Below, piece after piece: positions 707 to 63,019 of a DNA stretch of 64,000 nt. Under the pieces are notes generated by a model. It had not been told where the DNA came from. It saw only the letters and a program-made list of their open reading frames with translations, and did not search any database. The translations under genes were made by a program, and so were the position numbers. Within the stretch, counting starts at the first letter, position 1. The number at the start of each line of letters is the position of its first letter. The stretch is from Pseudoips prasinana (Eukaryota > Arthropoda > Insecta > Lepidoptera > Nolidae), in the NCBI GenBank assembly GCA_951640165.1, contig OX621252.1, positions 33,377,934 to 33,441,933 on the forward strand, written 5' to 3'.

Positions 707-710
707 AATT

Positions 711-1044
711 CCCTTCTCGCCGAATTTCAGCCTCGGCGGCCAGACATATTATAGTGCACAAGTGTATGCGCAAACACAAGGGCACTTTCTATTCCTTCAC
801 TCCCATGTTCCGATGGCACGCATAGACGAACGGAAAGAGGTCAGGCACAGTACCGACGCCTTTACATGCTCGGCTCGAGGTTCGGGGGTATAATACCGCC
901 AACTCACAGACTTCAGGCTGATGCTTAGAATTTTTTGTTCTTACAGAAAGTCCTAAAACCACTTTTGGCGCGACCCGGGATTTGGACCCAGGACATCGTT
1001 CTCTGCGGGTGAACTCGCTATCGCTAGACCAACAAGGCATCCCA
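711..1044 (-). mobile_element. tRNA-derived SINE, family E (antisense)
   Basis: Read on the minus strand it begins with GCCTTGTTGGTCTAGCG (A-box-like) and has a B-box-like GGGTCCAAATCCCGGG, then the family body (CTGAGTTGGCGGTATTATA, CGGCCGCCG region). It matches the copies at 11762-12132, 17446-17705 and the two halves flanking the 368-bp array at 42527 and 48509. It is useful as a reference for what the interrupted copy at 42527 looked like before insertion. Confidence 0.75.
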
Positions 1045-3390: not shown

Positions 3391-4788
3391 TTTTTTTTTT
3401 TTTTTATTTATTAAGGTTAACCAACAATGGTTTACACATAAACATTTCTAACTTAAAGGCTAGGGTAACATTTACAAGTGCAACAATTAATTATAGGTTA
3501 ACACCACATGCATAAAAAAAATGGCTTTATATAATATTTTAACACAAATTGTAACAAATTATCTATCTAACTTATTTAAAATTAAAAGTGAAATTATACA
3601 AACAAAAATAAGAACAAATAAAGTAATCAGTTAGTAACATTCAATGAAGTATATAAAAAAAATGGCATGAAGATGTATAAGGTGATTAAAATTGTAATTG
3701 ATTAAATTCTGTTTGATTATTATTTAAATTATGAATAAAAATGAAATAATTATATAAAGATAACAACATTAAATTAATTACATTAATAGAATTAAATTAT
3801 AAGAATAATCTTAATATAGTTAAAAATAAAACACGTATACAATTAAATTACATCTACATTGGATTATTTACAATAGCTCGTAGGATCGTATTCATACTGT
3901 CGTGGTGTATATCAATTATGTCACTGCGGCCATTAATGATTTTGCACAATCTGGGTAATGGAGAGTTCGCACCAAGAACAGACCTTCGAAGTGGCGGACA
4001 CAGGGGTGTTATTTTATTCCTAGGGTATCTAGAGGGCGCATGGAACCTAATAAGCTTTATTAGACTGGGGCAGTCGAACTTATTGCGCAACAGTTTACAA
4101 AGAAATAAGGCATCGGTTATATCTCTACGCATGGATAAGGTTTGTATTTTGAAATGGCACAGACGAGCCTTGTAAGAGGGCAGACGCTTCGATTTCCCCT
4201 CACTGAAGGCTAAATGCCAAACAAAACGTTTCTGTACCCTTTCTAGACGCAACATGTGAGTGGCATAGTGAGGCCTCCACACAACACTGCAATACTCCAT
4301 AACACTGCGTACAAGGCTGTTATACAAGATTATTTTAGTGCCACTTTTCCGAAAGCCTTTAGTGTTACGAAGTAAGAACCCTAACATTTTTGATGATTTC
4401 TTAATAATATATTCAATATGGGGCACAAAAGTGACCTTTTTGTCAAAAAGAACTCCTAGATCCCTCATTGTTTCGACTTCCTGGACTTTTTTTTGGTTTA
4501 TGAGATATTCCGTGTCAATACTATTAATTTTTCTCGTATATTTTACATGGTAACATTTATTTAGATTTAGTTGCATTTTATTATTGTGACACCATTTTAT
4601 AACTTCATTGAGATCATGTTGCAGTAGTTCACAGTCTCTTTTTGACTCGATTACTCGTGCAAATTTCAAGTCATCCGCATACAGAAAAGGTTCGGAAAAA
4701 CGAAAACATTCAGGAAGGTCATTGATGAACAAATTAAATAGTATTGGAGCTAAGTGAGATCCTTGAGGGAGTTAGTAGTAGTAGTTAG
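3391..4788 (-). mobile_element. 5'-truncated non-LTR retrotransposon (CR1/Jockey-type)
   Basis: On the minus strand the copy starts inside the reverse transcriptase and ends in a poly(A) of 15 (poly-T at 3391-3405). A TAAG duplication (about 3387-3390 and 4789-4792) flanks it, consistent with target-primed insertion into the Helitron-like repeat. Its 3' untranslated region resembles that at about 53962-54240, so at least two insertions of the family are present. Confidence 0.75.
3854..4774 (-). CDS. Reverse transcriptase C-terminal fragment of CR1/Jockey-type LINE
   Basis: The fragment begins with the RT motif PQGSHLAPILFNLFIND (encoded at about 4774-4724; the 292-residue ATG-initiated part starts at 4732). 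It then has the catalytic FLYADDLK box and the thumb region with LNLNKCYH and DLGVLFDKK. The C-terminal tail includes YNSLVRSVMEYCSVVW, a hallmark of the region after RT in CR1/Jockey-type elements. It copies element RNA onto nicked chromosomal DNA. The endonuclease and N-terminal palm are missing because of 5' truncation, so the copy is dead although its remaining frame is open to the stop at 3854. Confidence 0.85.
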
Positions 4789-11761: not shown

Positions 11762-12132
11762 TTACTACCTCATTAGATTAGCGGTAGCATGGTCAACTCA
11801 GATACCTAATGAGGTTCCGGGTTCAAATGTCGGGTCGGAGGAAAAAGTTATATTGGGTTATTTCTGTCAAGAAAACTTGCTGATTGTAGGACAACTTCCT
11901 TCAATCTGCAACTTTACGGTGTTACAACCTCGTTCTTCATAGGGAGCGTAAAACCGACGGTCTTGTACCTGTTCTCTTTTCGGTCGTGTCGGCAAGCCAG
12001 CCCTTCGAATCAAAAGAATTAGGGAATACAAATCTCATCTGTATTCGTTCACTATAATATGGCCCGCGCAGATGTCTAACGCCTTGCCGTTATAGCCGAA
12101 TTCGACCAGCAGGGCATTATTATTATTATTAG
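11762..12132 (+). mobile_element. tRNA-derived SINE, family E, diverged full-length copy
   Basis: Head TTACTACCTCATTAGATTAG, B-box-like GGTTCAAATGTCGGGTC, body with CGACGGTCTTGTACCTG and CGAATTCGACCAG, and a (ATT)n tail. Same family as 711-1044 and the copy split by the 368-bp array. Confidence 0.7.
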
Positions 12133-12620: not shown

Positions 12621-12872
12621 ATAATAATAATATCTCGGGACAATGTCACACAGATCATCCTAGCCCCAAACTAAGCAAAGCTTGTACTATGGGTACCAGG
12701 CGACGATATACATACTTATATAGATAGATAAATACTTATATACATAGAAAACATCCATGACTCAGAAACAAATATTCGTGCTCATCACGCAAATATTTGC
12801 ACTTACCGGGATTCGAACCCAGGACCACCAGCTTCGTAGGCAGGAGCACTACCAACTAGGCTACGGTGATCG
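12621..12872 (-). mobile_element. tRNA-derived SINE, family B
   Basis: Read on the minus strand: CACCGTAGCCTAGTTGGTAG (A box), GGTTCGAATCC (B box), then AAGTGCAAATATTTG, CGTCGCCTGGTACCCATAGT, TAGTTTGGGGCTAGGATGAT and an ATTATT tail. Copies also at 19560-19815, 25104-25196 (truncated), 29684-29945, 34997-35255, 36312-36572 and 49544-49797; most copies match closely, so the family is probably young. Confidence 0.85.
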
Positions 12873-16437: not shown

Positions 16438-17445
16438 TAAAGTAATTATTTAGTATTATTTTTAGATTATAATTTAGGAAACAAATGAACAACAATGATT
16501 CAATAATATTAAATGTAGTATATGTTGAAATATTACAGATAGTTCACGTAACTCAACAGATTAGTCATGTCTATATGGCTACAACATCTCCAGCGAGCAA
16601 TGTGCAGGTAGGTGGTGAGCGCCAGACGTCTTTGTCATCGATGTACTCTTTAGTGGTGTAATAATCCCTCGCTACGGCACCACAGACGGTATAGTGGTAC
16701 CGTTCGACCGTCAAATAGTATTACTACGTTAAGATCGCGAGTAGGTCACCAGAACTCATCGGATAGGGGAGAAGGGTTCGTAACGCCTAAGTGATTATGA
16801 TAGACTACTTATCGGTAAGTGGCCCAAAAGCTTCTTCGCCGACACAGTAGTACCTACACAAAATTATCGAGACTTCACTGGACAATAGGCCTAAGAGAAT
16901 GCAATTTGTCATGGTAGGGGCGCGGGGCGAATTTGAAAAGGCGACGGAAAAATTATTCCACTGCGGAATCGCGCGATATATCACCGAGACACGCGCGAGA
17001 ATTACACGGAGCGAGTTTGTTACGAGTTATGATACGAGTTTGTTGAGTTACGAGTTTTCTGAGTTATGTTCATCTTTGTCGCTTTAATTTAATGAACGTT
17101 TTTTGGGTTACACCTGTGTTGACTTGCGACTCAAGGCGTCCGCATATTTGAATTTAATTACACGAACTTGTACCGCCGTGTATTACCATGATATTGATTA
17201 CGGGAAGCTGTTTGCGTTGGGTTTACGTAACAATATTTATTTCATACATATTATGAACAACATATGTTATGTAAAACAGGTACGTAGATTTAACCTTAGT
17301 AAGTACATATACCACTCTGTTACGCCAAACATTTACAAACAATATTCTTTTTTGTAAATTTTTGGCGTAATAAAGTATATATCAACGCAATGCGTAGCCT
17401 TACTGTTAAAAGTGGTCGATAATAATATAAAGATACGGTGTTATA
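16438..17445. other. Unassigned stretch, possible LTR or LINE debris
   Basis: Moderate GC between 16550 and 17100 (for example GCGATATATCACCGAG), then AT-rich. Open frames at 16899-17087 and 17103-17357 have no recognisable motif. An AATAAA lies near 17370. Nothing can be named. Confidence 0.35.
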
Positions 17446-17705
17446 CAATGTGCTCTTGGTCTATTTTCGACCACGGCGGCGGCTATTCTCAATGGAGAGT
17501 AGTCATCTACGCGGGACATATTATAGTAAACAAGCGTATGCGCAAATACAGAAGCACTTTCTGTTACATCACTCTCATGGTTCGATCGGACGACTAGTGA
17601 CAAGACCGGTAAGATACAGGATCGACGACTTTAAGTGTACTCCGAGGCACAGGGTTGTAACACCGCCAACTCCCAGACTTCAGGCTAATACTTATAAAAA
17701 TACCA
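17446..17705 (-). mobile_element. SINE family E (antisense), tRNA head missing
   Basis: Minus-strand body of family E: GACCACGGCGGCGGC, TATGCGCAAATACAGAAG, ACCGCCAACTCCCAGACTTC. The overlapping frames on both strands (17406-17722) are produced by the repeat. Confidence 0.7.
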
Positions 17706-19559: not shown

Positions 19560-19815
19560 TAACGGTCACCGTAGCTTAGTTGGTAGTGATCCTGCCTACG
19601 AAGCTGGTGGTCCTGGGTTCGAATCCCGGTAAGTGCAAATATTTGTGTGATGAGCACGAATATTTGTTTCTGAGTCATGGATGTTTTCTATGTATATAAG
19701 TATTTATCTATCTATATAAGTATGTATATCGTCGCCTGGTACCCATAGTACAGTGCTGCTAGCACTGCTTTGCTTAGTTTGGGGCTAGGATGATCTGTGT
19801 GACATTGTCCCCAGA
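19560..19815 (+). mobile_element. SINE family B
   Basis: GGTCACCGTAGCTTAGTTGG, GGGTTCGAATCCCGG and the family body. A short insertion near 19750 (CAGTGCTGCTAGCACTG) creates a small palindrome not present in other copies. Confidence 0.85.
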
Positions 19816-22021: not shown

Positions 22022-25000
22022 TATAATATACATACATACATACATACATAGACTCACGCCTGTTTCCCAGAGGGGTAGGCAGAGACAACGAATTTCCATT
22101 TGTCACGATCTTTGCATACTTCTTTTGCCTCGATCACTGTCATTACATTCTTCATACATGCTCGCCGGTTTAGGGTACTTCTGACCTGCCCTTTCTTGAG
22201 AACATCTCCAATTTGGTCAGAGAATGTTCGACGTGGTCTTCCCCTTCCGGTTGTCCCATTCACACAGGCCAGGTATACTTCTTTTGTCAATCTTCTTTGA
22301 TTCATCCTTTCTAAATGGCCAAACCATCTCAGCATGCCTTTTTCAATCTTTGTGACTACATCCTCTTTCACACCACAACGCTCTCTTACATCAGTATTTC
22401 GAATTCTGTCTCTCAAAGTCACACCACACATACTTCTCAGAGCTCTCATTTCCACTGCATTTATTTTACTTTCATTCTTTTTCTGCCATACCCAACTTTC
22501 ACTTCCATACATTAAAGTTGGCACTAACACTCCATCGTGCACGGCTAGTCGAGCCTTCTTTGATACTTGCCGGCTACTCATAAAGGCGTGTAGTGCCCCA
22601 TTCACTCTGTTCCCCGCATTTACTCTTCTTACAATATCTTTTTCATATTTCCCATCTCTCGTAAACAAAGTTCCCAAATATACAAACTCATTCACCTGTT
22701 CGACTTTCTCTCCTCCAATCACAATATCACACGCTGTCGTGTATTCATCCCTCTCAAATACCATTACTTTCGTCTTACCTACATTCATTTTCATCCCTTT
22801 CTTTTCAAAAGATTCATACATCATTGTTACCATCACCTGCAACTCGTCCGCCGATGATGCAAGTAAAACTTGATCATCAGCGTAAAGCAGACATTTGATG
22901 AGTAACTCATTCATCCTTACACCGCATTCACTTTCTTTCAAATCTTTTAAACAGCTATCCATGAATAGGTTAAACAACCACGGTGACGCTACACATCCCT
23001 GTCTAACACCCTTTTGGATGCTAAACCACTCGGTGTATGACCCGTTAATCCTCACGCAAGCTCTGGAATCCCTATAAAGAGATTTCAGTGCTTGAACAAG
23101 GTTGTCATTCAACCCATACATGGACAGTACCGACCATAGTTCATTCCTCAACACTCTATCGTAGGCCTTTTCTAAGTCTACGAAGGCACAATAGACCTTT
23201 TGGTTTTCGCCCAAAAACTTCTCTACTATGCTTCGCAGAGAAAAGACCTGATCCGTGCATCCCATTCCTTTCCGAAAACCCGCCTGTGCATCCCATATTT
23301 TCGCATCGGTTTCTTTCACAACTCTTTCAACCAATACTTTTGCATACAACTTACCAACGACGCTGAGCAGACTAATGCCCCTATAGTTTTTACAGTCTTG
23401 CCGTGAGCCTTTCCCTTTGTAAAGAGGTACGATGACAGCCTTGCACCAATCACTTGGCACTTGGCCGGTGGTATAGCATAAATTGAAAAGGCTGCACAGC
23501 TGACTCGCTATGATGCCATGTCCAGCCTTCAGCATCTCGGAAGTTATCCTGTCATACCCTGGTGACTTACCTGATTCCATACCCTTAATAGCTTTCACAA
23601 TCTCATCCATACCAATGTCATCTTTACATTTGTTCTTGTCTATACTTAGTGAACTACGTTCACTCTCTGTTACACCTCTTTCATACAAACTTTCAAAATA
23701 CTCCTTCCAACGTTTTAACACGCATTCTTCCCCTTTCACTATATTTCCATCTTGGTCTCGTATGGATTTCAGTTCTGAGGTTTGAGTTATGCCTCTTACT
23801 GATCTAACGGATTTCCAGAAAAACTTAATGTTCGTCTGAAAATCCTTAGACAACCTTCTATCAAAATTATCCTTTTGTTCATTTTTCTTTTCGTTCACCA
23901 CATCCTTTACAATTCCTTTCATTTTCCTATAATCATTCCAGGCCCTTTCTATATCCTCATTCGTCGCCTTATGCATTCGTTCGTTTGCTCTGGTGGCTAG
24001 CCAGTCTAACCACGCTTTCTTTTTTTCACATACAACTTTTTGTACACTTTTATCCCACCAAATATTCTTCATCTTTCTTCCTCTTCTTCTCTTTATTACA
24101 CCACATACTTCACCAGCTACACTCACCACACCTTCTTTGACTACCTTCCATAGCTCTTCTACTTCTCTTATGTCTTCAGATCCCTCAAACTTCTCAACCA
24201 ACTTACTTTTGTACTCATCTGCCACTTCTTCCTCTTGCAGTTCCTCTACTTTTATTCTCTCTAGTACACTCTTAGTCTCAGGGATTCGGTGGCGCCATCC
24301 TTTGAATAGACCACTTATTCGGCTCATCACCAGAAAGTGGTCTGTATGGATTGCGGTCCCACGATAGACTCTTGTGTCTAGAACATTCTTTCTCAGTCTT
24401 TCATCTACAATCACGAAGTTAATCATACTCTTTCTCACATTTTTCCTCTCTCGTGTAAACGTATGGATTCTTTTATGTTCAAACATAGTATTTGTAACAC
24501 AAAGACCCCATTCCAAACATATCTTAAGCAGACTGTACCCATTCTCATTCTCACTCTCGTCACCGAATTGACCTAGTACTCTTTCAAAACCATCACGTTT
24601 TACCCCAACCCATCCATTAAAATCACCTAACATTATTACTCTTTCATTATACCGACTTAACCGCAACACATCTCTCAGGTTCTCCCAGAATGCCTTTCTT
24701 TCCTCTTGTTCTCGCTGTATTACAACTGCACCCATATCTACAGGAGCGTACACTCCTACTAGGAAGATACGGGTCATACCAACTTTCATTCTCAACCACA
24801 TTACTCTTGCATTCACGCATTCGAACTCAGTCACACACTCAGACATACTTGTGGAAAGAATGAGACCCACACCTTAGCAAGCTCGGGTGGTGTTCGGTAC
24901 TCCAGACCAAAACGCCGTGTATAGTCCGTGGTTTGTAGTATCACACCCTTTCCGCTTCGTCTCATTCACACACAACACATCGATCTGCTTTTCACTCATC

Positions 25001-25196: not shown

Positions 25197-28100
25197 TGTA
25201 CGGTGCACGTACAGGATTTTAATGTATATTTAGCAAATTATGTTAGAAAAGGCCCGCTTTGATCGCAACCTACATTTGGTACTTAGTGCAATGACATGTA
25301 GCAGAACATTTTTATACATTTCTCATATTTAGTGTTCATAAAGACGTGGTTTGATTCGGACGACTTGCATTTTCATTACGATTCATCCCGTGGAACATTC
25401 ACTGACACTCTACATACATTTAATTGCACTGACATTCAATGAACGGTTAACACACCGTACATTTTTTTTTTGGTCCTTCGAAATTTCTTATTTTTGCAAG
25501 TACGGTCCGTAATTACGGTCGGTTATTCGTTTCGTGTAATCTGGGTCGCGTCGTGTCGTACCGTGCCACGTGTGTTGCCGTGCAGGAGCATTCAAGGAGG
25601 TCGCAGCAATCCAGGTTCCGGAGCCTCACATTGCATCTGAGTAGTGGAAGAGTTCCTGATTTTCAAGTAAGATCGTTCTTTTTTTTCCTACCATACCAAC
25701 AATGGAAGGTTTAATCGCACGTCAAGCTGAAATTCTCGAGGAGGTGAGGCGGATCCATACTAATTTTAAGAAGGATTCGGCTAACAGAAAGAATCCTGAT
25801 TATATTCGTCAAAGACTTCAGCAATTAGATCACCTTTGGGTTGAAAGTGAAAAGAACAATCAGGAGCTCAGTGCAGTAGAAGAAAAGAAGCATCAATACT
25901 TCACTGACAACATCTTTGAGGTAATAAAGAGCTGGTATCAAGGCGCCCGTCGAGAGATAGCAGAATGGGAGAAGCTTCAAGTTGGACCCAGCGGCGCTGC
26001 ACCTAGCAGCTCTAGTAAGTTAAATATTGAGTTTGACAGCACCCTATATGAAAAGAAGCCAATGGGCGAGGAGAAGCTACTCGAGTTACAACAGTTGCAA
26101 CAGGCTAACTTCCGTGCATTTAAGAGAGCAGTTACGAGTATTTGCATTGACAAGGTGAGCGAAAAATGGGAGATTGAGGATATATTAAAGACTTTGGAAA
26201 CACGATGGACTGCAATTGACAAAGTACACTTAAATATTGATGGCATATTACAAGGGGCACCTAATGCATATTATGCAGAATTTGATTGCCATGAAAGTTC
26301 CTTTACAAAAATTAAACGGGCGTTGAACACAAAGCTAAACGCCACTGTGCATCAACAACAAACATTACCTAAAATTGACATACCCATCTTTAATGGGAAT
26401 TACGCATCGTGGCCTACGTTCATGGACTTATATGTGGAAGCAATTCATAATAATCCTGCGATTGCAAAGGCGCAAAAAATGCAACACCTTAAGGGACGAT
26501 TGCGAGGTGAGGCGGAAAAACTCGTACAACACTTACACATCGCTCCCGAAAATTATGACACGTGCTGGGAAATATTGAACCATAGGTATAATAACCAATT
26601 CCTATTATTCACCAATAATTTCCAGGTATTTATGCGCCAACCTATAATTCAGGTACAGTCAGCAGTTGACATTAAGCGGTTATACGACACTAGCAATGAA
26701 ACTATAAACGCTATACATAACTTGGGTGTAGATACAAGCACGTGGGATCCCGTTTTAGTTTATATTTTATGCCAAAAGCTTGATTCTGTAACATATTCGG
26801 AATATATGCAAGCTAGGTCAGATCCGCGGGAGATACCCACATACAATCATTTCATGGATTTTTTAGAGAATAAGTTTATGGCACTAGAACCATTGCATAA
26901 GAAAAAGCCAGAACATATTAATAAACCTGCCCCAACAAAAACTCAGTTTAACAGCGCACCATTCAACAAAAACCCTAAACCAGCATATATGCAGCATAAT
27001 AAAAGTTCATCGACTCATTCTCGGAATTATCATGCCTACAATATTGGCCAGTTTCGTAAAATTAATTGTCCACTGTGCGATAGCAACCATGCATTATTTC
27101 AATGTTTGAAATTTGCAGACATGAATAGTTATGAAAAGTTGACATTTATGTCAAATAACAAGATTTGCAAGAATTGTCTGTATGTGCATAACAAGGGTTT
27201 TTGCGCGTCTCAAAAAAGATGCCGAGATTGCAATGAACCACATAATACGTTATTACACACCGATATGGGTAACTTGGGGAAAACACCTTTAGCAACGTCG
27301 ACGACTTCTAAACCAATACCTTCGGTGTCAACTAGATCATGCAAAAACATTCAAAATAACTTCGCCTCAAACAGTAACGATGAGATATTATTGGCAACTG
27401 CATTATTAAAGGTAGCGACCGTTAAGGGTGATTACATTACATTAAGAGCGTTGATAGATCAAGGGTCACAGATAACTCTAATAACGGAAAATGCAGCACA
27501 GAGACTGGGTTTACAGCGTCAACAGTTAAGCGCGAGTATTAGTGGTATTGGTACTTTATCAAATAAAAGTAAGGGGAAGGTCGAACTATTCTGCAAATCC
27601 TTACATAGCGATTTCAGATTTACAACGGAAGCGTTAATCATGACAAAGGTGGTAAGCAATTTGCCTAATGCTACATTTGCAAGGAAAGCTTGGGCTCATA
27701 CTTCAGGCATAACTCTAGCCGATCCAGATTATAACATATCTAGGCCCATTGACATACTTCTAGATGCACATGTATTTTCGAAAATTTTGATGAATGGGCT
27801 GATTAAGGGAGAAGGTAATGAACCCATGGCTCAGCAAACATATTTGGGGTGGATATTATCTGGAAATGTCCACAAGACATAACTGCAATGTTGTAATAAA
27901 TCAAGTCGATGAGTTAACAAAGTTTTGGGAAATCGAAGACATTAGTGGTGATGCGTGCATTTCAATGACATCAGAGGAGAGATATTGTGAGGAGTTTTAC
28001 GTTGAAACAACAAAACGTTTGGATAATGGTCGGTATGAAGTCCGTTTACCAATGAAACCTAATTTTGAGCAATTGTTGGGCAAGTCAAAATCACGGGCAA

Positions 28101-28415
28101 TAGCACAATTTACGCAATTAGAAAGGAAAATGTGCAGGGATGAGATGTTTTCGGAAAGTTACACTAAATTTATGCAAGAATATTTGGAAATGGGGCATAT
28201 GAAAGAGAGTAAGTCTGACCGTAACCCGGAATGCTTCTTACCTCACCATGGAGTCCTTAAACAGGACTCAGTGACAACGAAACTAAGAGTTGTTTTCAAT
28301 GCCTCACAGAATACTGACTCTGGCTACAGTTTGAATGACTTGATGGAGTGCGGTCCTAAGCTTCATCAAGATTTATTGATTTTGTTAATGGGATGGAGGC
28401 GATACAAGTACGTTT
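25197..28415 (+). mobile_element. BEL/Pao LTR retrotransposon, 3'-truncated
   Basis: Starts with TGTACGGTGCACGTACAGG, a TG-beginning LTR candidate, placed at the break in the SINE. The LTR/primer-binding-site boundary lies somewhere in 25560-25680 and I cannot fix it. Gag-protease and the start of RT follow; RT, RNase H, integrase and the 3' LTR are missing, and sequence switches to a minus-strand LINE ORF1 near 28415. Confidence 0.8.
25702..27882 (+). CDS. BEL/Pao Gag and aspartic protease
   Basis: This 726-residue frame begins at ATG after a poly-T stretch. The N-terminal region is helical and charged. Residues about 215-400 are the retrotransposon capsid-like region of the DUF1759 type (IDIPIFNGNYASWPTFMDLY, LKGRLRGEAEKLVQHLH). 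Zinc-binding Cys/His clusters are at about 455-467 (CPLCDSNHALFQC) and 488-520 (CKNC...CRDCNEPH). The retropepsin-like domain has LRALIDQGSQITLITENAA near 582-600, where D of DQGS is the catalytic Asp of BEL-type proteases. Gag packages element RNA in particles and the protease matures the polyprotein. The frame ends in TAA at 27880-27882, where a family member would continue into RT: a one-base gain or two-base loss just after KT (about 27877-27883) shifts the frame. Confidence 0.9.
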   Translation: MEGLIARQAEILEEVRRIHTNFKKDSANRKNPDYIRQRLQQLDHLWVESEKNNQELSAVEEKKHQYFTDNIFEVIKSWYQGARREIAEWEKLQVGPSGAAPSSSSKLNIEFDSTLYEKKPMGEEKLLELQQLQQANFRAFKRAVTSICIDKVSEKWEIEDILKTLETRWTAIDKVHLNIDGILQGAPNAYYAEFDCHESSFTKIKRALNTKLNATVHQQQTLPKIDIPIFNGNYASWPTFMDLYVEAIHNNPAIAKAQKMQHLKGRLRGEAEKLVQHLHIAPENYDTCWEILNHRYNNQFLLFTNNFQVFMRQPIIQVQSAVDIKRLYDTSNETINAIHNLGVDTSTWDPVLVYILCQKLDSVTYSEYMQARSDPREIPTYNHFMDFLENKFMALEPLHKKKPEHINKPAPTKTQFNSAPFNKNPKPAYMQHNKSSSTHSRNYHAYNIGQFRKINCPLCDSNHALFQCLKFADMNSYEKLTFMSNNKICKNCLYVHNKGFCASQKRCRDCNEPHNTLLHTDMGNLGKTPLATSTTSKPIPSVSTRSCKNIQNNFASNSNDEILLATALLKVATVKGDYITLRALIDQGSQITLITENAAQRLGLQRQQLSASISGIGTLSNKSKGKVELFCKSLHSDFRFTTEALIMTKVVSNLPNATFARKAWAHTSGITLADPDYNISRPIDILLDAHVFSKILMNGLIKGEGNEPMAQQTYLGWILSGNVHKT

Positions 28416-28420
28416 TATAA
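27818..28420 (+). pseudogene. BEL/Pao Pol N-terminal part, frameshifted and truncated
   Basis: From about 27884 the +1-shifted frame encodes NCNVVINQVDELTKFWEIED, typical of the BEL/Pao linker after protease, and then RT start motifs PECFLPHHGVLKQDS, KLRVVFNASQ, YSLNDLMECGPKLHQDL and LMGWRRYKYV. The catalytic YVDD region is not present because the element is cut at about 28415. The overlap 27818-27882 belongs to the Gag-protease frame. Confidence 0.85.
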
Positions 28421-29683: not shown

Positions 29684-29945
29684 TGGTCACCGTAGCCTAG
29701 TTGGTAGTGCTCCTGCTTACGAAGCTGGTGGTCCTGGGTTCGAACCCGGTAAGTGCAAATATTTGTGTGATGAGGACGAATATTTGTTTCTGAGTCATGG
29801 ATGTTTTCTATGTATTTAAGTATTTATCTATCTATATAAGTATGTATATCGTCGCCTGGTACCCATAGTACAAGCTTTGCTTAGTTTGGGGCTAGGATGA
29901 TCTGTGTGACATTGTCCCTAGATATTATTATTATTATAATTTTAA
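29684..29945 (+). mobile_element. SINE family B
   Basis: GGTCACCGTAGCCTAGTTGG, GGGTTCGAACCCGG, full family body and (ATT)n tail. Confidence 0.85.
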
Positions 29946-31290: not shown

Positions 31291-31796
31291 TAATGCGTTA
31301 ACATTCCAATTTAATAAATTCTACTAGCTAGTTGGAACAGTTAAGGCTGGGAATTGGCATGGACTAAGATAAGAATATTTTAAATTATTTAATCCTTTCA
31401 TTTTGTAGAAAATAACGGTCACTTCTTAAAATGTAAATTACAATATTGTCATAAAGTGCGTCGATGATTGTCCGATAGGACCCATCTCTAAAATATTATG
31501 TAATTACCAAGCAACGTAACGCAAATCAAATACTTCGTGATTACAAGCTTACAGTGTAGTACATATGGCAGTACATCGTAAGCCCAGCTCCAGTCTAAGC
31601 CTGGCACAATTTACATTCACCTCCAAGTATAATTCATTGTATGAAAGTGATATAAATTATATTGTTTGCCGTGTGCCTTACAGTAAATTGGTTTAAAATG
31701 TATCTAGTTTACGTTTTTGAACGATAGAAAATTCGCATGTATTATTATTGATCTAAAAATTAAAAAAAAACACCCTTATTCTAAACTATTATAAAT
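31291..31796. other. AT-rich stretch, nothing recognised
   Basis: No supported feature. Confidence 0.45.
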
Positions 31797-31930
31797 TGAC
31801 TGCCTCGTTCGTCTAGTGGTAGCTTATTTAACCACAGATAAAGATGTCCTCGGTTCAAATACCGGGTCGAATCATAAAGTTATTTTGAGATTTAACTATA
31901 AAGAAAAAATCTCAGTATCAGCCTGGCCAT
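31797..31930 (+). mobile_element. SINE family E, 3'-truncated
   Basis: TTGACTGCCTCGTTCGTCTAG and GGTTCAAATACCGGGTCG; ends before the second half of the family. Confidence 0.65.
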
Positions 31931-36224: not shown

Positions 36225-36650
36225 AATAAAAAAGGTTATTAGTCACGTAAACTTTAAAAAAGCGCTTGTAAATAGTCAAAACATGTTTGTAGTAATATAT
36301 AATTCATTAATTGACGGTCACCGTAGCTTAGTTGGTAGTGCTCCTGCCTACGAAGCTGGTGGTCCTGGGTTCGAATCCCGGTAAGTGCAAATATTTGTGT
36401 GATGAGCACGAATATTTGTTTCTGAGTCATGGATGTTTTCTATGTATTTAAGTATTTATTCTATCTATATAAGTATGTATATCGTCGCCTGGTACCCATA
36501 GTACAAGCTTTGCTTAGTTTGGGGCTAGGTAGATCTGTGTGACATAGTCCCTAGATATTATTATTATTATTATTAATTAATCATTATTTATAGATACATA
36601 CGGATAGTAAGGTACACGGATTGTATAAAAACATTTACAATAAAATTACG
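36225..36650 (+). repeat. Interspersed repeat R split by a family B SINE
   Basis: Left part ACGTAAACTTTAAAAAAGCG...CATGTTTGTAGTAATAT to about 36311; right part with GGTACACGGATTGTATAAA near 36612. The uninterrupted copy at 20220-20345 shows both parts adjoining. Confidence 0.6.
36312..36572 (+). mobile_element. SINE family B
   Basis: GGTCACCGTAGCTTAGTTGG, GGGTTCGAATCCCGG, complete body and (ATT)n tail. A TTAATT-like short repeat occurs at both ends. Confidence 0.85.
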
Positions 36651-39552: not shown

Positions 39553-41135
39553 TCATCATCAGAAGAATATATCGTCATATCAGCCGAAAGACGCCCACTG
39601 ATGGACAAAGGCCTCCCCGAAAGATCGCCACAATTACCGGTCTTGCGCTATCCGCATCCAGCGACCATGGGTCCATTTTGGAGAGGGCCTGCCTACGCTG
39701 CGACTTCCGGATCGTGGTCGCCACTCGAGAACTTTTCGGCCGTCGGTTCTATGAGCTATGTGCCCTGCCCACTGTCACTTCAGCTTCTCAATTCTTCGGG
39801 ATATGCCGGTTACTTTGGTTCGCCTGCGGATCTCAGCATTTTCGATTGGATCTTGCAGGGAAACTCCAAGCCTAGCCCTTTCCATTGCTATTTAGGTGAT
39901 CTTGAGCCGTCTGATAAGGGCCATAGTGAGCGACCACGTCTCTGTTCCGTACGTCATCACTGGCAACACACACTGGTCGAAGACTTTTGACTTGAGACAC
40001 GGCGGTATTTGGGACGAGAAGATGTTACGTAGCTTCCCGAACGCTGCCCAGCCGAGCTGGATTCTACGAATGACCGCTTTCTCGAAGTTAGACCTAATTA
40101 GTTGGATGATCTTGTCCTAGGTAAATATAGTTCTCTACAACTTCGAGTGCAGAGTCTCCAACCTAAACTAGAGTGGGTGATTCATGGATGTTTCAGACCC
40201 ACTTGTTGAGAGACTCTGCTGACGCCATCGAGCATTGTACCGAGGTCTTCAAAGGTCTCAGCCATGACATTAATGCCAAAGCCTTCCTATTCCAGAAGCT
40301 TGAAGACATCTTCCAATGCAGCGGTGAACAGTTTCGAAGATATGACATCTCCCAGTCTCACACCTCGCTGCAAGTGGATAGGTTTCGAGTTCTGGTCCTG
40401 GAGTCGCATAGACATAGTAGCGTATTAATACAAACACTTTAACAGCTCGATATACCGGTATTCGATTCCTTTGGAGAAACCTCATTACGGCCCAGGTTTC
40501 GATTGAATCCGAGGTTTTCTCATAGTCCACAAACGCTAAGCATAATGGCTGGTTATACTCCTCGGTCTTCTGTATAACTTGCCGCAGCGTATGTATGTGG
40601 TCTATGGTACTACTAAAGCCTTTACGGAAACTGGCTTGTTCGGGAGGCTGGAAGTCGTCAGACCTGCGTGCGAGACGTTTCGTAATGACTCTCGAAAACA
40701 ATTTGTAAACATGGCTCAGCAGTGTGATGGGTCTGTACTTCTTCAGGAGGGTTTTATCACCCTTTTTGAAGAAGAGCACCGCCACACCTCTGTGCCATGC
40801 TTGTGGCGTTTGACCTTCTAGTATGACGGAGTTAAATAACTTCTGAAGGGCCCGTAAGATTGGTGTACCACCCGCCTTTAGAAGCTCTGCTGTAAGTCCA
40901 TCATCACCAGGCGTCTTGTTATTCTTAAGCTCTTTGAGAGCCATTCTAATGTCGTACAGGCTGACGTACGGGATGTCTTCGCTAAAGTGTTGGGTTAGTC
41001 GTGCTCTGGGAATAGACCTCTTTATATATATTTTGCGCCTCTTATTAGTAATGTCCTTTGGTAAATTTGAGATCAACCAAGGGTTCATCATCGCCCGAAG
41101 ATTTAGCTGTTTGTCAAGATTGGTGAGCATCATTA
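39553..41135 (-). pseudogene. RTE/BovB-like LINE, 5'-truncated and frameshifted
   Basis: The minus strand from 41133 encodes DIRMALKELKNNKTPGDDGL, LLKAGGTPILRALQKLFNSV, FFKKGDKTLLKKYRPITLLS, FRKGFSSTIDHIHTLRQVIQ and LCLAFVDYEKTSDSIETWAV: the finger and palm motifs of an RTE/BovB-type RT, with the first catalytic Asp in FVDYEK. Frame is then lost; the thumb and post-RT tail are visible only as broken pieces to about 39600, ending at the family 3' end CTTTCGGCTGATATGACG with a short tail. Endonuclease is missing. It is the longest of nine pieces of this family here (8863, 13977, 15655, 18437, 31974, 39553, 49816, 51385, 55797). Confidence 0.85.
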
Positions 41136-42526: not shown

Positions 42527-42553
42527 ACTGCCTCGTTGGTCTAGTGGTAGCGT
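42527..42553 (+). mobile_element. SINE family E, first 27 bp (left of the array)
   Basis: GACTGCCTCGTTGGTC followed by TAGTGGTAGCGT is the head of a family E SINE. Its remainder resumes at 48497 after the array, repeating TAGTGGTAGCGT. Confidence 0.85.
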
Positions 42554-42591
42554 TGTTTCAGAAATCTTTAAAATGAATTGTACAAATTTTA

Positions 42592-42662
42592 AGTGCGGGT
42601 GGGAATCGAACCCACGACCACGGGGATCCGGCCCATGTGCGTTAACCGCTCCGCCACCGCAC
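42592..42662 (-). ncRNA. tRNA-like domain of the array units (minus set)
   Basis: Minus-oriented copies occupy about 42592-42662, 42960-43030, 43329-43399 and 43698-43768. Same features as the plus set described at 44618. Confidence 0.65.
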
Positions 42663-44024
42663 CAGGTACTGAACACTTCAAATTTATACAACCCATTCGT
42701 TCGATATTTCTTAACGCATTTAAGTCGCTTTAACGCCATCTTACCGAAACCTACACGGCTAACAACGGCTGGAATGCCAATACTTAGATCGGACAATTCC
42801 AACAAATGGCGCTTTTTTAAATTATTCATTTTTGAATATTTTTATTAAATCATAGTTTTTTTATTATTAACTATGATTTCTTATTACTTTTAGCATTTTA
42901 AACATGCTATACTGAAAACAATGTTTCAGAAATCTTTAAAATGAATTGTATAAATTTTAAGTGCGGGTGGGAATCGAGCCCACGACCACGGGGATCCGGC
43001 CCATGTGCGTTAACCGCTCCGCCACCGCACCAGGTACTGAACACTTCAAATTTATACAACCCATTCGTTCGATATTTCTTAACGCATTTAAGTCGCTTTA
43101 ACGCCATCTTACCGAAACCTACACGGCTAACAACGGCTGGAATGCCAATACTTAGATCGGACAATTCCAACAGATGGCGCTTTTTTAAATTATTCATTTT
43201 TGAATATTTTTATTAAATCATAGTTTTTTTATTATTAACTATGATTTCTTATTACTTTTAGCATTTTAAACATGCTATACTGAAAACAATGTTTCAGAAA
43301 TCTTTAAAATGAATTGTATAAATTTTTAAGTGCGGTTGGGAATCGAACCCACGACCACGGGGATCCGGCCCATGTGCGTTAACCGCTCCGCCACCGCACC
43401 AGGTACTGAACACTTCAAATTTATACAACCCATTCGTTCGATATTTCTTAACGCATTTAAGTCGCTTTAACGCCATCTTACCGAAACCTACACGGCTAAC
43501 AACGGCTGGAATGCCAATACTTAGATCGGACAATTCCAACAGATGGCGCTTTTTTAAATTATTCATTTTTGAATATTTTTATTAAATCATAGTTTTTTTA
43601 TTATTAACTATGATTTCTTATTACTTTTAGCATTTTAAACATGCTATACTGAAAACAATGTTTCAGAAATCTTTAAAATGAATTATATAAATTTTTAAGT
43701 GCGGGTGGGAATCGAACCCACGACCACGGGGATCCGGCCCATGTGCGTTAACCGCTCCGCCACCGCACCAGGTACTGAACACTTCAAATTTATACAACCC
43801 ATTCGTTCGATATTTCTTAACGCATTTAAGTCGCTTTAACGCCATCTTACCGAAACCTACACGGCTAACAACGGCTGGAATGCCAATACTTAGATCGGAC
43901 AATTCCAACAGATGGCGCTTTTTTAAATTATTCATTTTTGAATATTTTTATTAAATCATAGTTTTTTTATTATTAACTATGATTTCTTATTACTTTTAGC
44001 ATTTTAAACATGCTATACTGAAAA

Positions 44025-44072
44025 AATGTTTCAGAAATCTTTAAAATTCATTTTAAAGATTTCTGAAACATT
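44025..44072. repeat. Palindromic junction between the two arms of the array
   Basis: A 23-bp arm (44025-44047, starts AATGTTTCAGAAATC) is separated by TC from its exact complement (44050-44072). Just to the right, the first plus unit has lost about 90 bp (the two-hairpin linker) and resumes at TAATTTAAATAAGCGCC. Confidence 0.9.
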
Positions 44073-44617
44073 GTTTTAAAAAAATAATAATTTAAATAAG
44101 CGCCATCTGTTGGAATTGTCCGATCTAAGTATTGGCATTCCAGCCGTTGTTAGCCGTGTAGGTTTCGGTAAGATGGCGTTAAAGCGACTTAAATGCGTTA
44201 AGAAATATCGAACGAATGGGTTGTATAAATTTGAAGTGTTCAGTACCTGGTGCGGTGGCGGAGCGGTTAACGCACATGGGCCGGATCCCCGTGGTCGTGG
44301 GTTCGATTCCCACCCGCACTTAAAATTTATACAATTCATTTTAAAGATTTCTGAAACATTGTTTTCAGTATAGCATGTTTAAAATGCTAAAAGTAATAAG
44401 AAATCATAGTTAATAATAAAAAAACTATGATTTAATAAAAATATTCAAAAATGAATAATTTAAAAAAGCGCCATCTGTTGGAATTGTCCGATCTAAGTAT
44501 TGGCATTCCAGCCGTTGTTAGCCGTGTAGGTTTCGGTAAGATGGCGTTAAAGCGACTTAAATGCGTTAAGAAATATCGAACGAATGGGTTGTATAAATTT
44601 GAAGTGTTCAGTACCTG

Positions 44618-44688
44618 GTGCGGTGGCGGAGCGGTTAACGCACATGGGCCGGATCCCCGTGGTCGTGGGTTCGATTCCCACCCGCACT
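44618..44688 (+). ncRNA. tRNA-like domain of the array units (plus set)
   Basis: Plus copies start at about 44250, 44618, 44986, 45354, 45721, 46089, 46457, 46825, 47194, 47561, 47929 and 48297. Acceptor GTGCGG pairs with CCGCAC; A box TGGCGGAGCGGTTAACG; T arm GTGGGTTCGATTCCCAC has a perfect 5-bp stem and B box GGTTCGATTCC. The middle can form a stem ATGGG/CCCGT with loop CCGGATC, whose anticodon position reads GGA but lacks U33, so it is unlikely to decode. TTTT 19 bases downstream (44707-44710) could end Pol III transcription, giving an RNA of about 90-100 nt. The last unit (48297) has CCGCAG, breaking the acceptor. Confidence 0.7.
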
Positions 44689-47600
44689 TAAAATTTATAC
44701 AATTCATTTTAAAGATTTCTGAAACATTGTTTTCAGTATAGCATGTTTAAAATGCTAAAAGTAATAAGAAATCATAGTTAATAATAAAAAAACTATGATT
44801 TAATAAAAATATTCAAAAATGAATAATTTAAAAAAGCGCCATCTGTTGGAATTGTCCGATCTAAGTATTGGCATTCCAGCCGTTGTTAGCCGTGTAGGTT
44901 TCGGTAAGATGGCGTTAAAGCGACTTAAATGCGTTAAGAAATATCGAACGAATGGGTTGTATAAATTTGAAGTGTTCAGTACCTGGTGCGGTGGCGGAGC
45001 GGTTAACGCACATGGGCCGGATCCCCGTGGTCGTGGGTTCGATTCCCACCCGCACTTAAAATTTATACAATTCATTTTAAAGATTTCTGAAACATTGTTT
45101 TCAGTATAGCATGTTTAAAATGCTAAAAGTAATAAGAAATCATAGTTAATAATAAAAAAACTATGATTTAATAAAAATATTCAAAAATGAATAATTTAAA
45201 AAAGCGCCATCTGTTGGAATTGTCCGATCTAAGTATTGGCATTCCAGCCGTTGTTAGCCGTGTAGGTTTCGGTAAGATGGCGTTAAAGCGACTTAAATGC
45301 GTTAAGAAATATCGAACGAATGGGTTGTATAAATTTGAAGTGTTCAGTACCTGGTGCGGTGGCGGAGCGGTTAACGCACATGGGCCGGATCCCCGTGGTC
45401 GTGGGTTCGATTCCCACCCGCACTTAAAATTTATACAATTCATTTTAAAGATTTCTGAAACATTGTTTTCAGTATAGCATGTTTAAAATGCTAAAAGTAA
45501 TAAGAAATCATAGTTAATAATAAAAAAACTATGATTTAATAAAATATTCAAAAATGAATAATTTAAAAAAGCGCCATCTGTTGGAATTGTCCGATCTAAG
45601 TATTGGCATTCCAGCCGTTGTTAGCCGTGTAGGTTTCGGTAAGATGGCGTTAAAGCGACTTAAATGCGTTAAGAAATATCGAACGAATGGGTTGTATAAA
45701 TTTGAAGTGTTCAGTACCTGGTGCGGTGGCGGAGCGGTTAACGCACATGGGCCGGATCCCCGTGGTCGTGGGTTCGATTCCCACCCGCACTTAAAATTTA
45801 TACAATTCATTTTAAAGATTTCTGAAACATTGTTTTCAGTATAGCATGTTTAAAATGCTAAAAGTAATAAGAAATCATAGTTAATAATAAAAAAACTATG
45901 ATTTAATAAAAATATTCAAAAATGAATAATTTAAAAAAGCGCCATCTGTTGGAATTGTCCGATCTAAGTATTGGCATTCCAGCCGTTGTTAGCCGTGTAG
46001 GTTTCGGTAAGATGGCGTTAAAGCGACTTAAATGCGTTAAGAAATATCGAACGAATGGGTTGTATAAATTTGAAGTGTTCAGTACCTGGTGCGGTGGCGG
46101 AGCGGTTAACGCACATGGGCCGGATCCCCGTGGTCGTGGGTTCGATTCCCACCCGCACTTAAAATTTATACAATTCATTTTAAAGATTTCTGAAACATTG
46201 TTTTCAGTATAGCATGTTTAAAATGCTAAAAGTAATAAGAAATCATAGTTAATAATAAAAAAACTATGATTTAATAAAAATATTCAAAAATGAATAATTT
46301 AAAAAAGCGCCATCTGTTGGAATTGTCCGATCTAAGTATTGGCATTCCAGCCGTTGTTAGCCGTGTAGGTTTCGGTAAGATGGCGTTAAAGCGACTTAAA
46401 TGCGTTAAGAAATATCGAACGAATGGGTTGTATAAATTTGAAGTGTTCAGTACCTGGTGCGGTGGCGGAGCGGTTAACGCACATGGGCCGGATCCCCGTG
46501 GTCGTGGGTTCGATTCCCACCCGCACTTAAAAATTTATACAATTCATTTTAAAGATTTCTGAAACATTGTTTTCAGTATAGCATGTTTAAAATGCTAAAA
46601 GTAATAAGAAATCATAGTTAATAATAAAAAACTATGATTTAATAAAAATATTCAAAAATGAATAATTTAAAAAAGCGCCATCTGTTGGAATTGTCCGATC
46701 TAAGTATTGGCATTCCAGCCGTTGTTAGCCGTGTAGGTTTCGGTAAGATGGCGTTAAAGCGACTTAAATGCGTTAAGAAATATCGAACGAATGGGTTGTA
46801 TAAATTTGAAGTGTTCAGTACCTGGTGCGGTGGCGGAGCGGTTAACGCACATGGGCCGGATCCCCGTGGTCGTGGGTTCGATTCCCACCCGCACTTAAAA
46901 TTTATACAATTCATTTTAAAGATTTCTGAAACATTGTTTTCAGTATAGCATGTTTAAAATGCTAAAAGTAATAAGAAATCATAGTTAATAATAAAAAAAA
47001 CTATGATTTAATAAAAATATTCAAAAATGAATAATTTAAAAAAGCGCCATCTGTTGGAATTGTCCGATCTAAGTATTGGCATTCCAGCCGTTGTTAGCCG
47101 TGTAGGTTTCGGTAAGATGGCGTTAAAGCGACTTAAATGCGTTAAGAAATATCGAACGAATGGGTTGTATAAATTTGAAGTGTTCAGTACCTGGTGCGGT
47201 GGCGGAGCGGTTAACGCACATGGGCCGGATCCCCGTGGTCGTGGGTTCGATTCCCACCCGCACTTAAAATTTATACAATTCATTTTAAAGATTTCTGAAA
47301 CATTGTTTTCAGTATAGCATGTTTAAAATGCTAAAAGTAATAAGAAATCATAGTTAATAATAAAAAAACTATGATTTAATAAAATATTCAAAAATGAATA
47401 ATTTAAAAAAGCGCCATCTGTTGGAATTGTCCGATCTAAGTATTGGCATTCCAGCCGTTGTTAGCCGTGTAGGTTTCGGTAAGATGGCGTTAAAGCGACT
47501 TAAATGCGTTAAGAAATATCGAACGAATGGGTTGTATAAATTTGAAGTGTTCAGTACCTGGTGCGGTGGCGGAGCGGTTAACGCACATGGGCCGGATCCC

Positions 47601-48496
47601 CGTGGTCGTGGGTTCGATTCCCACCCGCACTTAAAATTTATACAATTCATTTTAAAGATTTCTGAAACATTGTTTTCAGTATAGCATGTTTAAAATGCTA
47701 AAAGTAATAAGAAATCATAGTTAATAATAAAAAAACTATGATTTAATAAAAATATTCAAAAATGAATAATTTAAAAAAGCGCCATCTGTTGGAATTGTCC
47801 GATCTAAGTATTGGCATTCCAGCCGTTGTTAGCCGTGTAGGTTTCGGTAAGATGGCGTTAAAGCGACTTAAATGCGTTAAGAAATATCGAACGAATGGGT
47901 TGTATAAATTTGAAGTGTTCAGAACCTGGTGCGGTGGCGGAGCGGTTAACGCACATGGGCCGGATCCCCGTGGTCGTGGGTTCGATTCCCACCCGCACTT
48001 AAAATTTATACAATTCATTTTAAAGATTTCTGAAACATTGTTTTCAGTATAGCATGTTTAAAATGCTAAAAGTAATAAGAAATAATAGTTAATAATAAAA
48101 AAACTATGATTTAATAAAAATATTCAAAAATGAATAATTTAAAAAAGCGCCATCTGTTGGAATTGTCCGATCTAAGTATTGGCATTCCAGCCGTTGTTAG
48201 CCGTGTAGGTTTCGGTAAGATGGCGTTAAAGCGACTTAAATGCGTTAAGAAATATCGAACGAATGGGTTGTATAAATTTGAAGTGTTCAGTACCTGGTGC
48301 GGTGGCGGAGCGGTTAACGCACATGGGCCGGATCCCCGTGGTCGTGGGTTCGATTCCCACCCGCAGTTAAAATTTATACAATTCATTTTAAAGATTTCTG
48401 AAACATTGTTTTCAGTATAGCATGTTTAAAATGCTAAAAGTAATAAGAAATCATAGTTAATAATAAAAAAACTATGATTTAATAAAAATATTCAAA

Positions 48497-48845
48497 TAGT
48501 GGTAGCGTGTTTCACCCGCAGAGAACGAGGTCCTGGGTTCAAATCCCGGGTCGGGCCAGAAAAGTGATTTTGGGACTTTTCTGTATAAATAAAAATTTCT
48601 CAATACTAGCCCGAAGTCTGGGAGTTGGCGGTATTATATCCCCGTGCCTCGGAGAGCACGTAAAGCCGTCGGTCCTGTACCTGACCTCTATCCGGTCGTG
48701 TCGCTAGGCGTCCCATCGGATCATGAGAGTGATGGAATAGAAAGTGCTCTTGTGTTTGCGCACACACTCTTGAGAATAATTGGCTAATCTCTGTTGAGAC
48801 TGGCCGCCGTGGTCGAAATTCGGCTAGGAGGACATTAGTATAATT
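48497..48845 (+). mobile_element. SINE family E, remainder right of the array
   Basis: Second TAGTGGTAGCGT, then GTTTCACCCGCAGAGAACG, GGTTCAAATCCCGGGTCG (B box), GGGAGTTGGCGGTATTATAT and GGTCGAAATTCGGCTAGGAG. Joined to 42527-42553 it makes an uninterrupted family E copy. Confidence 0.85.
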
Positions 48846-49543: not shown

Positions 49544-49797
49544 ATAATAATAATATCTAGGGACAATGTTACACAGATCATCCTAGCCCCAAACTAAACA
49601 AAGCTTGTACTTTGGGTACCAGGCGACGATATACATACTTATATAGATAGATAAATACTTAAATACATAGAAAACATCCATGACTGAGAAACAAATATTC
49701 GTGCTCATCACACAAATATTTGCACTTACCGGGATTCGAACCCAGGACCACCAGCTTCGTAGGCAGGAGCACTACCAACTAGGCTACGGTGACCGTC
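49544..49797 (-). mobile_element. SINE family B (antisense)
   Basis: AATAATAATAATATCTAGGG, CCTAGCCCCAAACTAAACAA, GGGATTCGAACCCAGGACC, CTACCAACTAGGCTACGG in minus orientation. Confidence 0.85.
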
Positions 49798-61382: not shown

Positions 61383-62585
61383 CTTTTCTAACATATTACA
61401 ATGCATTGTTGTTAACTTCATCCTCTTGCATCAAAAAAACGGGTTCTTTTCTAACATATTACAATGCATTGTTGTTAACTTCATCCTCTTGCATCAAAAA
61501 AACGGGTTCTTTTCTAACATATTACAATGCATTGTTGTTAACTTCATCCTCTTGCATCAAAAAAACGGGTTCTTTTCTAACATATTACAATGCATTGTTG
61601 TTAACTTCATCCTCTTGCATCAAAAAAACGGGTTCTTTTCTAACATATTACAATGCATTGTTGTTAACTTCATCCTCTTGCATCAAAAAAACGGGTTCTT
61701 TTCTAACATATTACAATGCATTTTTGTTAACTTCATCCTCTTGCATCAGAAAAACGGGTTCTTTTCTAACATATTACAATGCATTGTTGTTAACTTCATC
61801 CTCTTGCATCAGAAAAACGGGTTCTTTTCTAACATATTACAATGCATTGTTGTTAACTTCATCCTCTTGCATCAAAAAAACGGGTTCTTTTCTAACATAT
61901 TACAATGCATTGTTGTTAACTTCATCCTCTTGCATCAGAAAAACGGGTTCTTTTCTAACATATTACAATGCATTTTTGTTAACGTCATCCTCTTGCATCA
62001 GAAAAACGGGTTCTTTTCTAACATATTACAATGCATTGTTGTTAACTTCATCCTCTTGCATCAGAAAAACGGGTTCTTTTCTAACATATTACAATGCATT
62101 GTTGTTAACTTCATCGTCTTGCATCAAAAAAACGGGTTCTTTTCTAACATATTACAATGCATTGTTGTTAACTTCATCCTCTTGCATCAGAAAAACGGGT
62201 TCTTTTCTAACATATTACAATGCATTTTTGTTAACTTCATCCTCTTGCATCAGAAAAACGGGTTCTTTTCTAACATATTACAATGCATTGTTGTTAACTT
62301 CATCCTCTTGCATAAAAAAAACGGGTTCTTTTCTAACATATTACAATGCATTGTTGTTAACTTCATCCTCTTGCATAAAAAAAACGGGTTCTTTTCTAAC
62401 ATATTACAATGCATTTTTGTTAACTTCATCCTCTTGCATCAGAAAAACGGGTTGTTTTCTAACATATTACAATGCATTGTTGTTAACTTCATCCTCTTGC
62501 ATCAAAAAAACGGGTTCTTTTCTAACGTATTACAATGCATTGTTGTTAACTTCATCCTCTTGCATCAAAAAAGCGGGTTCTTTTC
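61383..62585 (+). repeat. 63-bp minisatellite, 19 copies
   Basis: Unit: CTTTTCTAACATATTACAAT, GCATTGTTGTTAACTTCATC, CTCTTGCATCAAAAAAACGGGTT. Two positions vary systematically (GCATTG/GCATTT and ATCAAA/ATCAGA). Because 63 is divisible by three, frames of 403 and 387 codons stay open; they lack any other sign of coding and overlap each other, so I do not call a gene. Confidence 0.95.
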
Positions 62586-63019
62586 TTAAGACGGCACATT
62601 CGAATATTTCGAGATAATCGGAAAAACTAAGGTCAAAAATGCCAGCGCATTCCACCAATTTCCGTGATAAATCCTTCTATTGTGGTATGCGCTATCAATA
62701 ACAGTGCGAAACAACAGTACATAAAGTTTATACGAGTTCCAGCAAATTGCAAAGACTGAAAACCTATCACTAAATAATACACATGGAATGAAAGAAATAT
62801 TATTTAAGTAATATATATATCTCTTTATTATATTTTAACAGTAGGCTCTTATACTGAATGGTTAATATTAACAATATACACGGAAAAAATTGTCTCTAAA
62901 TAGGCCAACAAATTCCCAACTGCGTTTTCTTCACTCCTATTCCTCGAAGAGATTGAAGCTAGCGGTAAGGCTGCTTTTTTACCATCTTGTTAAACATGTT
63001 TATAGTAAATAATAATAAT
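62586..63019. other. AT-rich stretch, nothing recognised
   Basis: No supported feature. Confidence 0.45.

Follow-up and report, generated by a model that had tools for sequence, protein, structure and literature searches.

The 64,000-nucleotide stretch analyzed here (the window), positions 33,377,934 to 33,441,933 of contig OX621252.1 from the lepidopteran Pseudoips prasinana (GCA_951640165.1), contains at 42554-48496 a block of 16 tRNA-like units of about 368 bp, which are arranged in two head-to-head arms, four on the minus strand followed by twelve on the plus strand. The insertion site of this block, or of its founder, is the head of an old tRNA-derived short interspersed nuclear element (SINE), and the insertion has one target duplication. 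As its origin we propose, with a probability of roughly 0.5, twin-primed reverse transcription of the type known from long interspersed nuclear elements (LINEs), acting on a multimeric or circular RNA of tRNA sense and followed by homogenization or expansion of the plus arm. The features concerned are the following:

42529..42553, plus strand: left flank of the insertion, formed by the 5′ head of the tRNA-derived host SINE
42542..42553: TAGTGGTAGCGT, left copy of the target duplication; lies in the apparent A-box region at the head of the host SINE
42554..44047, minus strand: minus arm with 4 tRNA-like units, 1494 bp (~4.06 unit lengths), bounded by unit positions 259 (outer end) and 239 (inner end)
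44045..44047: inversion hinge, a 3-nt overlap (AAT) of the two arms in the near-perfect palindrome TTTAAAA-TTCA-TTTTAAA, deduced from sequence and unit positions
44045..44099, plus strand: partial first plus unit, ~80 bp deleted beside the hinge; carries one substitution and one 1-nt gap
44100..48496, plus strand: plus arm with 12 tRNA-like units, its outer end lying at unit position 350; no substitutions in units 1-10
46307..46674, plus strand: representative 368-bp unit, 36% GC; tRNA-like part at unit positions 150-222
46456..46528, plus strand: tRNA-like sequence, one example of 16; anticodon read as GGA; C33; 73 nt
48497..48508: right copy of the target duplication, TAGTGGTAGCGT, then GTTTCA, which also starts the array on the left after one extra T
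48509..48837, plus strand: remainder of the host SINE, right of the insertion; extent taken from the alignment to 706-1039 (minus)

Array structure and insertion site

The left arm was delimited by TRF at 42554-44047 (period 369, 4.1 copies, 99% matches) and the right arm at 44080-48496 (period 368, 12.0 copies, 99% matches). ARAGORN reported 16 tRNA-like genes over the window in the order four minus, then twelve plus, and all 16 units scored 36.5-45.8 bits against the Rfam tRNA family RF00005, which has a gathering score of 29 bits. An earlier inspection made without any searches (the sequence-only reading) had described sixteen units of this size and orientation in the same interval, and these analyses confirm it, with the following corrections: the plus arm truly starts at about 44045 with a 55-bp partial unit, the outermost units of the array are both partial (259 bp and 350 bp), and the target duplication is possibly longer. 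Copy number and orientation of the units rest on the assembly. Outside the array, no copy of the unit was found within the window, the residual matches being no longer than 57 bp and the strongest of them B-box matches of 19-23 bp. Exact unit patterns gave no match in IMG/VR (two patterns) or in bacterial and archaeal genomes (one pattern), viral and prokaryotic collections that are uninformative on insects.

Over the 64 kb there are exactly two occurrences of the 12-mer TAGTGGTAGCGT, one at each edge of the array (42542 and 48497), and none of its reverse complement. When the array and one copy of TAGTGGTAGCGT are removed, the host aligns through the junction to a SINE at 706-1039 (minus strand; 79% over 356 columns) and to another at 31796-31923 (plus strand; 78% over 133 columns), in both cases with a 1-nt gap in GTTT within a few bases past the junction. 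Since TAGTGGTAGCGT is present at both edges and the flanks are continuous with other SINE copies, the block or its founder must have arrived as an insertion. The sequence-only reading had drawn the same conclusion from an exact 12-bp target duplication and from the SINE that is rebuilt upon deletion. The duplication may, however, be longer than 12 bp: the left edge reads TAGTGGTAGCGT-T-GTTTCA and the right edge TAGTGGTAGCGT-GTTTCA, together an imperfect 18/19-bp repeat, and such a duplication is possible because TGTTTCA of the array matches the target past the duplication with a shift of one base. Two partial SINE matches (17441-17698 and 11808-12032) stop short of the junction. Directly before the antisense SINE at 706-1039 lie two adjoining copies of about 233 bp (228-700, 91% matches), which start with CTAGCGGCCCGGTACGTGCTTCGCTACGC.

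Junctions, hinge and predicted fold

The outer ends of the two arms are not inverted repeats of each other, because the left one lies at unit position 259 and the right one at 350; terminal inverted repeats were not found, the two array ends being alike at only 11 of 30 bases in an ungapped comparison. At the hinge, the minus arm stops at unit position 239 and the plus arm starts at 234. The loss of about 80 bp affects only the plus side of the hinge, and such losses occur in unstable palindromes. At the left junction, seven nucleotides of the array end (TGTTTCA) match the target just beyond the duplication with a one-base displacement. A match of this length was attained in one of 736 unit phases (both strands), namely the real one, and in 12 of 20,000 random draws from the window, in a test that skipped the array region and whose offset range was chosen after the match had been seen.

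Within the unit, an A-box match is located at unit position 157 and a B box at 202, according to patterns which we take to be those of RNA polymerase III (pol III). Judged from its sequence, the "tRNA" of the unit is tRNA-like only and not a working tRNA-Ser; by our own reading, a genuine tRNA-Ser gene cluster is ruled out by C33 (not U) and by the 73-nt body, which lacks a long variable arm. The longest stem of the predicted fold, which comprises 19 bp (115-133/224-242) and forms in linear monomers as well, encloses the tRNA-like part. Compared with 100 dinucleotide shuffles, the circular unit is predicted to fold much more stably, with z = -6.7 for the tRNA-sense strand and z = -4.8 for the opposite strand. 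In the predicted circular fold, both outer ends of the array (unit positions 259 and 350) fall into hairpin loops, and the inner ends (234 and 239) lie 8 and 3 nt inside the 3′ base of the 19-bp stem. When the structure was rotated through all 368 positions, these four conditions coincided in only two cases, one of them the true one, although they were fixed after the structure had been seen. An Rfam scan of 1,501 bases (about four units), carried out up to E = 10, returned no ribozyme family; sub-threshold matches to HPnc0260, RUF4 and others were far under their gathering scores and are taken as chance. The motif CTGANGA, presumably the hammerhead box, is absent from both strands of the unit, with only two one-mismatch matches, both on the minus strand.

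Variation between units

Alignment of the units revealed eight substitutions in the full and outer units, each private to a single unit, and a ninth in the damaged unit beside the hinge. Five of the eight are located in the minus arm and three in the last two plus units. None falls into the inner plus units p1-p10, which make up 3,679 of the 5,947 bp of summed unit length (probability 0.0004 under even placement and 0.003 by a longest-gap test). The absence of substitutions from these ten units indicates that the inner plus arm was probably homogenized or expanded after insertion. The units also have two homopolymer-length variants in common, the first found in p7, m1 and m2 and the second in p4 and p9; recurrence, inheritance or sequencing errors may account for them. 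To show what ordinary tandem amplification looks like, a 63-bp array at 61383-62586 served as internal control (19.1 copies at 97% matches, with two frames open over 400 codons). Its 18 examined units contain six variable columns, three of which have states common to two, four and eight units, the usual mark of stepwise unequal exchange, whereas not a single substitution is shared in the 368-bp array.

Proposed origin by twin-primed reverse transcription

In the origin proposed here, a tRNA-like RNA with strong secondary structure would have served as the template, either in circular form or as a multimer of head-to-tail units. A LINE-type helper enzyme would have started target-primed reverse transcription in the SINE, with both ends of a staggered nick priming on the RNA (twin priming), so that the bottom-strand end would have yielded the plus arm and the top-strand end the minus arm. 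Their orientation suggests that both arms are DNA copies of a tRNA-sense RNA primed from the left and right target ends. Both copies would have halted at the base of the same long RNA stem, where the predicted fold would lead a reverse transcriptase to stall at the inner-end position, and they would have been joined there via the 3-nt overlap. Filling in of the stagger would then have given the 12-bp (or imperfect 18/19-bp) duplication. Homogenization or expansion of the plus arm in place would have followed, as would the loss of about 80 bp next to the palindromic hinge. A circular template would allow several laps from both primers, and a linear multimeric transcript of an array elsewhere could give the same result. 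The papers cited here and below by their PMC numbers are drawn upon as excerpts, and what is said of their content applies to these. Twin priming is described there as leaving a target duplication and inverting the 5′ part of the copy, with microhomology both at the hinge and at the 5′ junction (PMC2912911), and all of these features are found in the array. A narrower version of the proposal, in which a retroelement travels as a viroid-like circular RNA with a tRNA head and no known ribozyme and gives rise to two-armed arrays in one step through multi-lap reverse transcription from both nick ends, appears doubtful to us.

Several observations weigh against the proposed origin. The right junction lacks microhomology, and the right array end, AAATATTCAAA, carries neither poly(A) nor a recognized LINE-like 3′ tail. 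In linear dimers and trimers, the 19-bp stem is predicted to pair between copies unless the pairing distance is limited to ≤200 nt; as it is thus not kept inside one unit, the structure argument loses weight if the multimer was linear, and circular RNA or local folding is mildly favored. The tRNA-sense strand contains TTTT at unit positions 240-243 and 263-266, for which reason pol III alone would often stop before the end of a full unit, and as the first of these runs coincides with the hinge, it could be an unrelated cause of the breakpoint there. The shared homopolymer-length variants are not expected of a strict star of private changes unless they are recurrent or errors. Furthermore, the ten inner plus units without substitutions imply that one cDNA alone does not account for the number of units seen today. 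Alu and SVA elements, which are also mobilized in trans, are rarely inverted at their 5′ ends (PMC2912911), and the evidence comes from a single locus.

Alternative explanations

The best-placed alternative, less probable in our view but a serious contender, is that a DNA concatemer, either an extrachromosomal circle or a satellite fragment with a head-to-head junction, was caught at a staggered double-strand break, the fill-in of the overhangs producing the duplication. The tandem units, the inverted arms, the duplication and the microhomology at one junction would all be accounted for in this way, and no RNA-specific feature such as poly(A) or a LINE tail stands at the array. A clean 12-bp duplication is unusual for end joining. 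Nor would a concatemer by itself lead one to expect that the two arms stop at the 3′ base of one and the same tRNA-sense stem, although these loops and this stem could also form in single-stranded DNA. Regarding the three origins that the sequence-only reading had left side by side, namely retrotransposition of a multimeric RNA, amplification of one insertion in place and integration of a circular or palindromic intermediate, the data favor retrotransposition of a multimeric or circular RNA with later homogenization of the plus arm in place, yet they do not single it out against the integration of a DNA concatemer.

A further contender, likewise less probable, is a short founder of a few units, already inverted, that was retroposed and then brought to the present size by unequal exchange or replication slippage. 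Such a founder would already have had to exceed one unit and to be inverted, because the outer ends differ in unit position and have opposite orientation, and the lack of any substitution common to two units is unlike the 63-bp array with its shared variants. The substitution-free units p1-p10 are what mid-array homogenization would be expected to leave, SINE-derived satellites with uniform middle units have been described (PMC10702118), and the two homopolymer-length variants common to several units would fit as well.

There is only a slight chance that the block is an artefact of assembly, i.e., a chimeric or collapsed repeat. Long near-identical repeats and ten inner units without substitutions invite this suspicion, and some homopolymer length differences resemble consensus errors, but five substitutions are confined to the minus arm, the two flanks do not mirror each other, and the block is surrounded by an exact target duplication; private variants in both arms speak against a chimera. 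The least credible source is a DNA transposon of the foldback type whose inverted arms contain tandem repeats, as in Tetris or Galileo, for the resemblance ends with inverted arms of few-hundred-bp tandem repeats and a target duplication, while the outer ends are not inverted repeats, a middle domain is absent, and the duplication has 12 bp as compared to 8-10 bp in Tetris (PMC4079207).

Candidate classes were also rejected on single features. Elements of the foldback or terminal-inverted-repeat type are ruled out by the missing terminal inverted repeats, and elements with long terminal repeats (LTRs) or terminal-repeat retrotransposons in miniature (TRIMs) by the length of the duplication and the arms. 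Helitrons make no target duplication and are ruled out by the 12 bp found here.

Comparison with known elements

The closest known kind of element is the metazoan non-LTR retrozymes. These have units of 150-450 bp with low GC, no LTRs and a highly self-paired predicted RNA (PMC7229834, PMC7761336); their units are arranged in tandem, from dimers up to 62-mers in a coral, with target duplications of >4 bp when present (PMC7229834). Circular RNA has been proposed as the source of their multi-unit DNA, and insects are among the named carriers (PMC7229834, PMC7761336). The array resembles them in its 368-bp units of 36% GC, in its 16 tandem units without LTRs, in its target duplication and in its well-folded predicted RNA. 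It differs in that neither a type I hammerhead nor any other Rfam ribozyme was found in its unit, in its tRNA-like head with pol III boxes (retrozymes are said in the excerpts to harbor no promoters), and in its inverted arm, a feature which these excerpts do not mention for retrozymes (PMC7229834, PMC7761336). Since a hammerhead ribozyme is the defining feature of retrozymes and no known ribozyme was found, we do not class the array as a retrozyme, even though it may work like one.

With twin-primed LINE copies (PMC2912911) the array shares the target duplication, the inverted 5′ part and the microhomology at left junction and hinge; its template, in contrast, would be multi-unit and non-coding, and poly(A) is absent. 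A tRNA-like head with A and B boxes, as in tRNA-derived SINEs, was found (RF00005 in 16/16 units), and tandem arrangement and uniform inner units are further likenesses to SINEs and SINE-derived satellites (PMC10702118). Unlike these, the whole array lies in one target duplication, has an inverted arm and is accompanied by no single unit elsewhere in the window. TRIMp3/Helenus (PMC10886601) is likewise a short non-coding element with a pol III head derived from a small RNA, and tandem arrays are reported for LTR-11_DR; Helenus has duplications of 4-5 bp, LTRs, a primer-binding site and a polypurine tract, whereas the array has a 12-bp duplication and head-to-head arms. Similarly, the foldback element Tetris (PMC4079207) combines a target duplication with inverted arms that contain tandem repeats (~220 bp), but the array has no terminal inverted repeats, no flanking or middle domain and a longer duplication. 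An ordinary satellite array differs from the present one by the lack of a target duplication and by shared substitutions, of which there are none here (two homopolymer-length variants are shared).

The earlier view that the array does not fit an ordinary SINE, miniature inverted-repeat transposable element or satellite is supported. The accompanying remark that no described element of such a form was known is not supported, as related forms are found in retrozyme multimers (PMC7229834), in twin-primed 5′ inversion (PMC2912911) and in the arm repeats of foldback elements (PMC4079207). In open-licence literature, taken by titles and beginnings of abstracts and with subscription papers and preprints outside this scope, no two-armed tRNA-like array in one target duplication was present among the matches listed.

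Other features of the window

A profile scan of 6 of the 25 listed frames identified three with RVT_1, all on the minus strand (22054-24870, 3854-4768 and 40270-41133), and nothing links them to the array. The first of these is part of a long LINE-type frame (22054-24873, 939 aa, open between two stops), which also has a sub-threshold endonuclease match. An open frame of 357 aa at 1406-2479 (minus strand) is of the Tc-like transposase type (DDE_3 and HTH_Tnp_Tc3_2). On the plus strand, 25660-27882 contains an open frame of 740 aa with DUF1759 and a slightly sub-threshold aspartyl protease match, which probably stems from an LTR-type element; a second frame lies at 27803-28420. Tandem pairs of a ~20-bp motif (TCTATCTATATAAGTATGTA and relatives) are found at five places, namely 12708-12748, 19687-19727, 29807-29847, 36433-36480 and 49631-49671. 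The pairs at 12708, 36433 and 49631 are less than ~100 bp away from tRNA-like matches at 12806, 36324 and 49729, and perhaps the motif pairs represent a SINE tail.

Implications

If the origin from RNA proposed here is true, a multi-unit tandem array would have been born in one retrotransposition event, which would tie together SINEs, circular RNAs and satellite DNA. It would further predict a circular or multimeric RNA that does without a ribozyme and has its own pol III promoter. Twin priming, a known mechanism, would account for the inverted arm, and such loci would therefore be open to systematic search.

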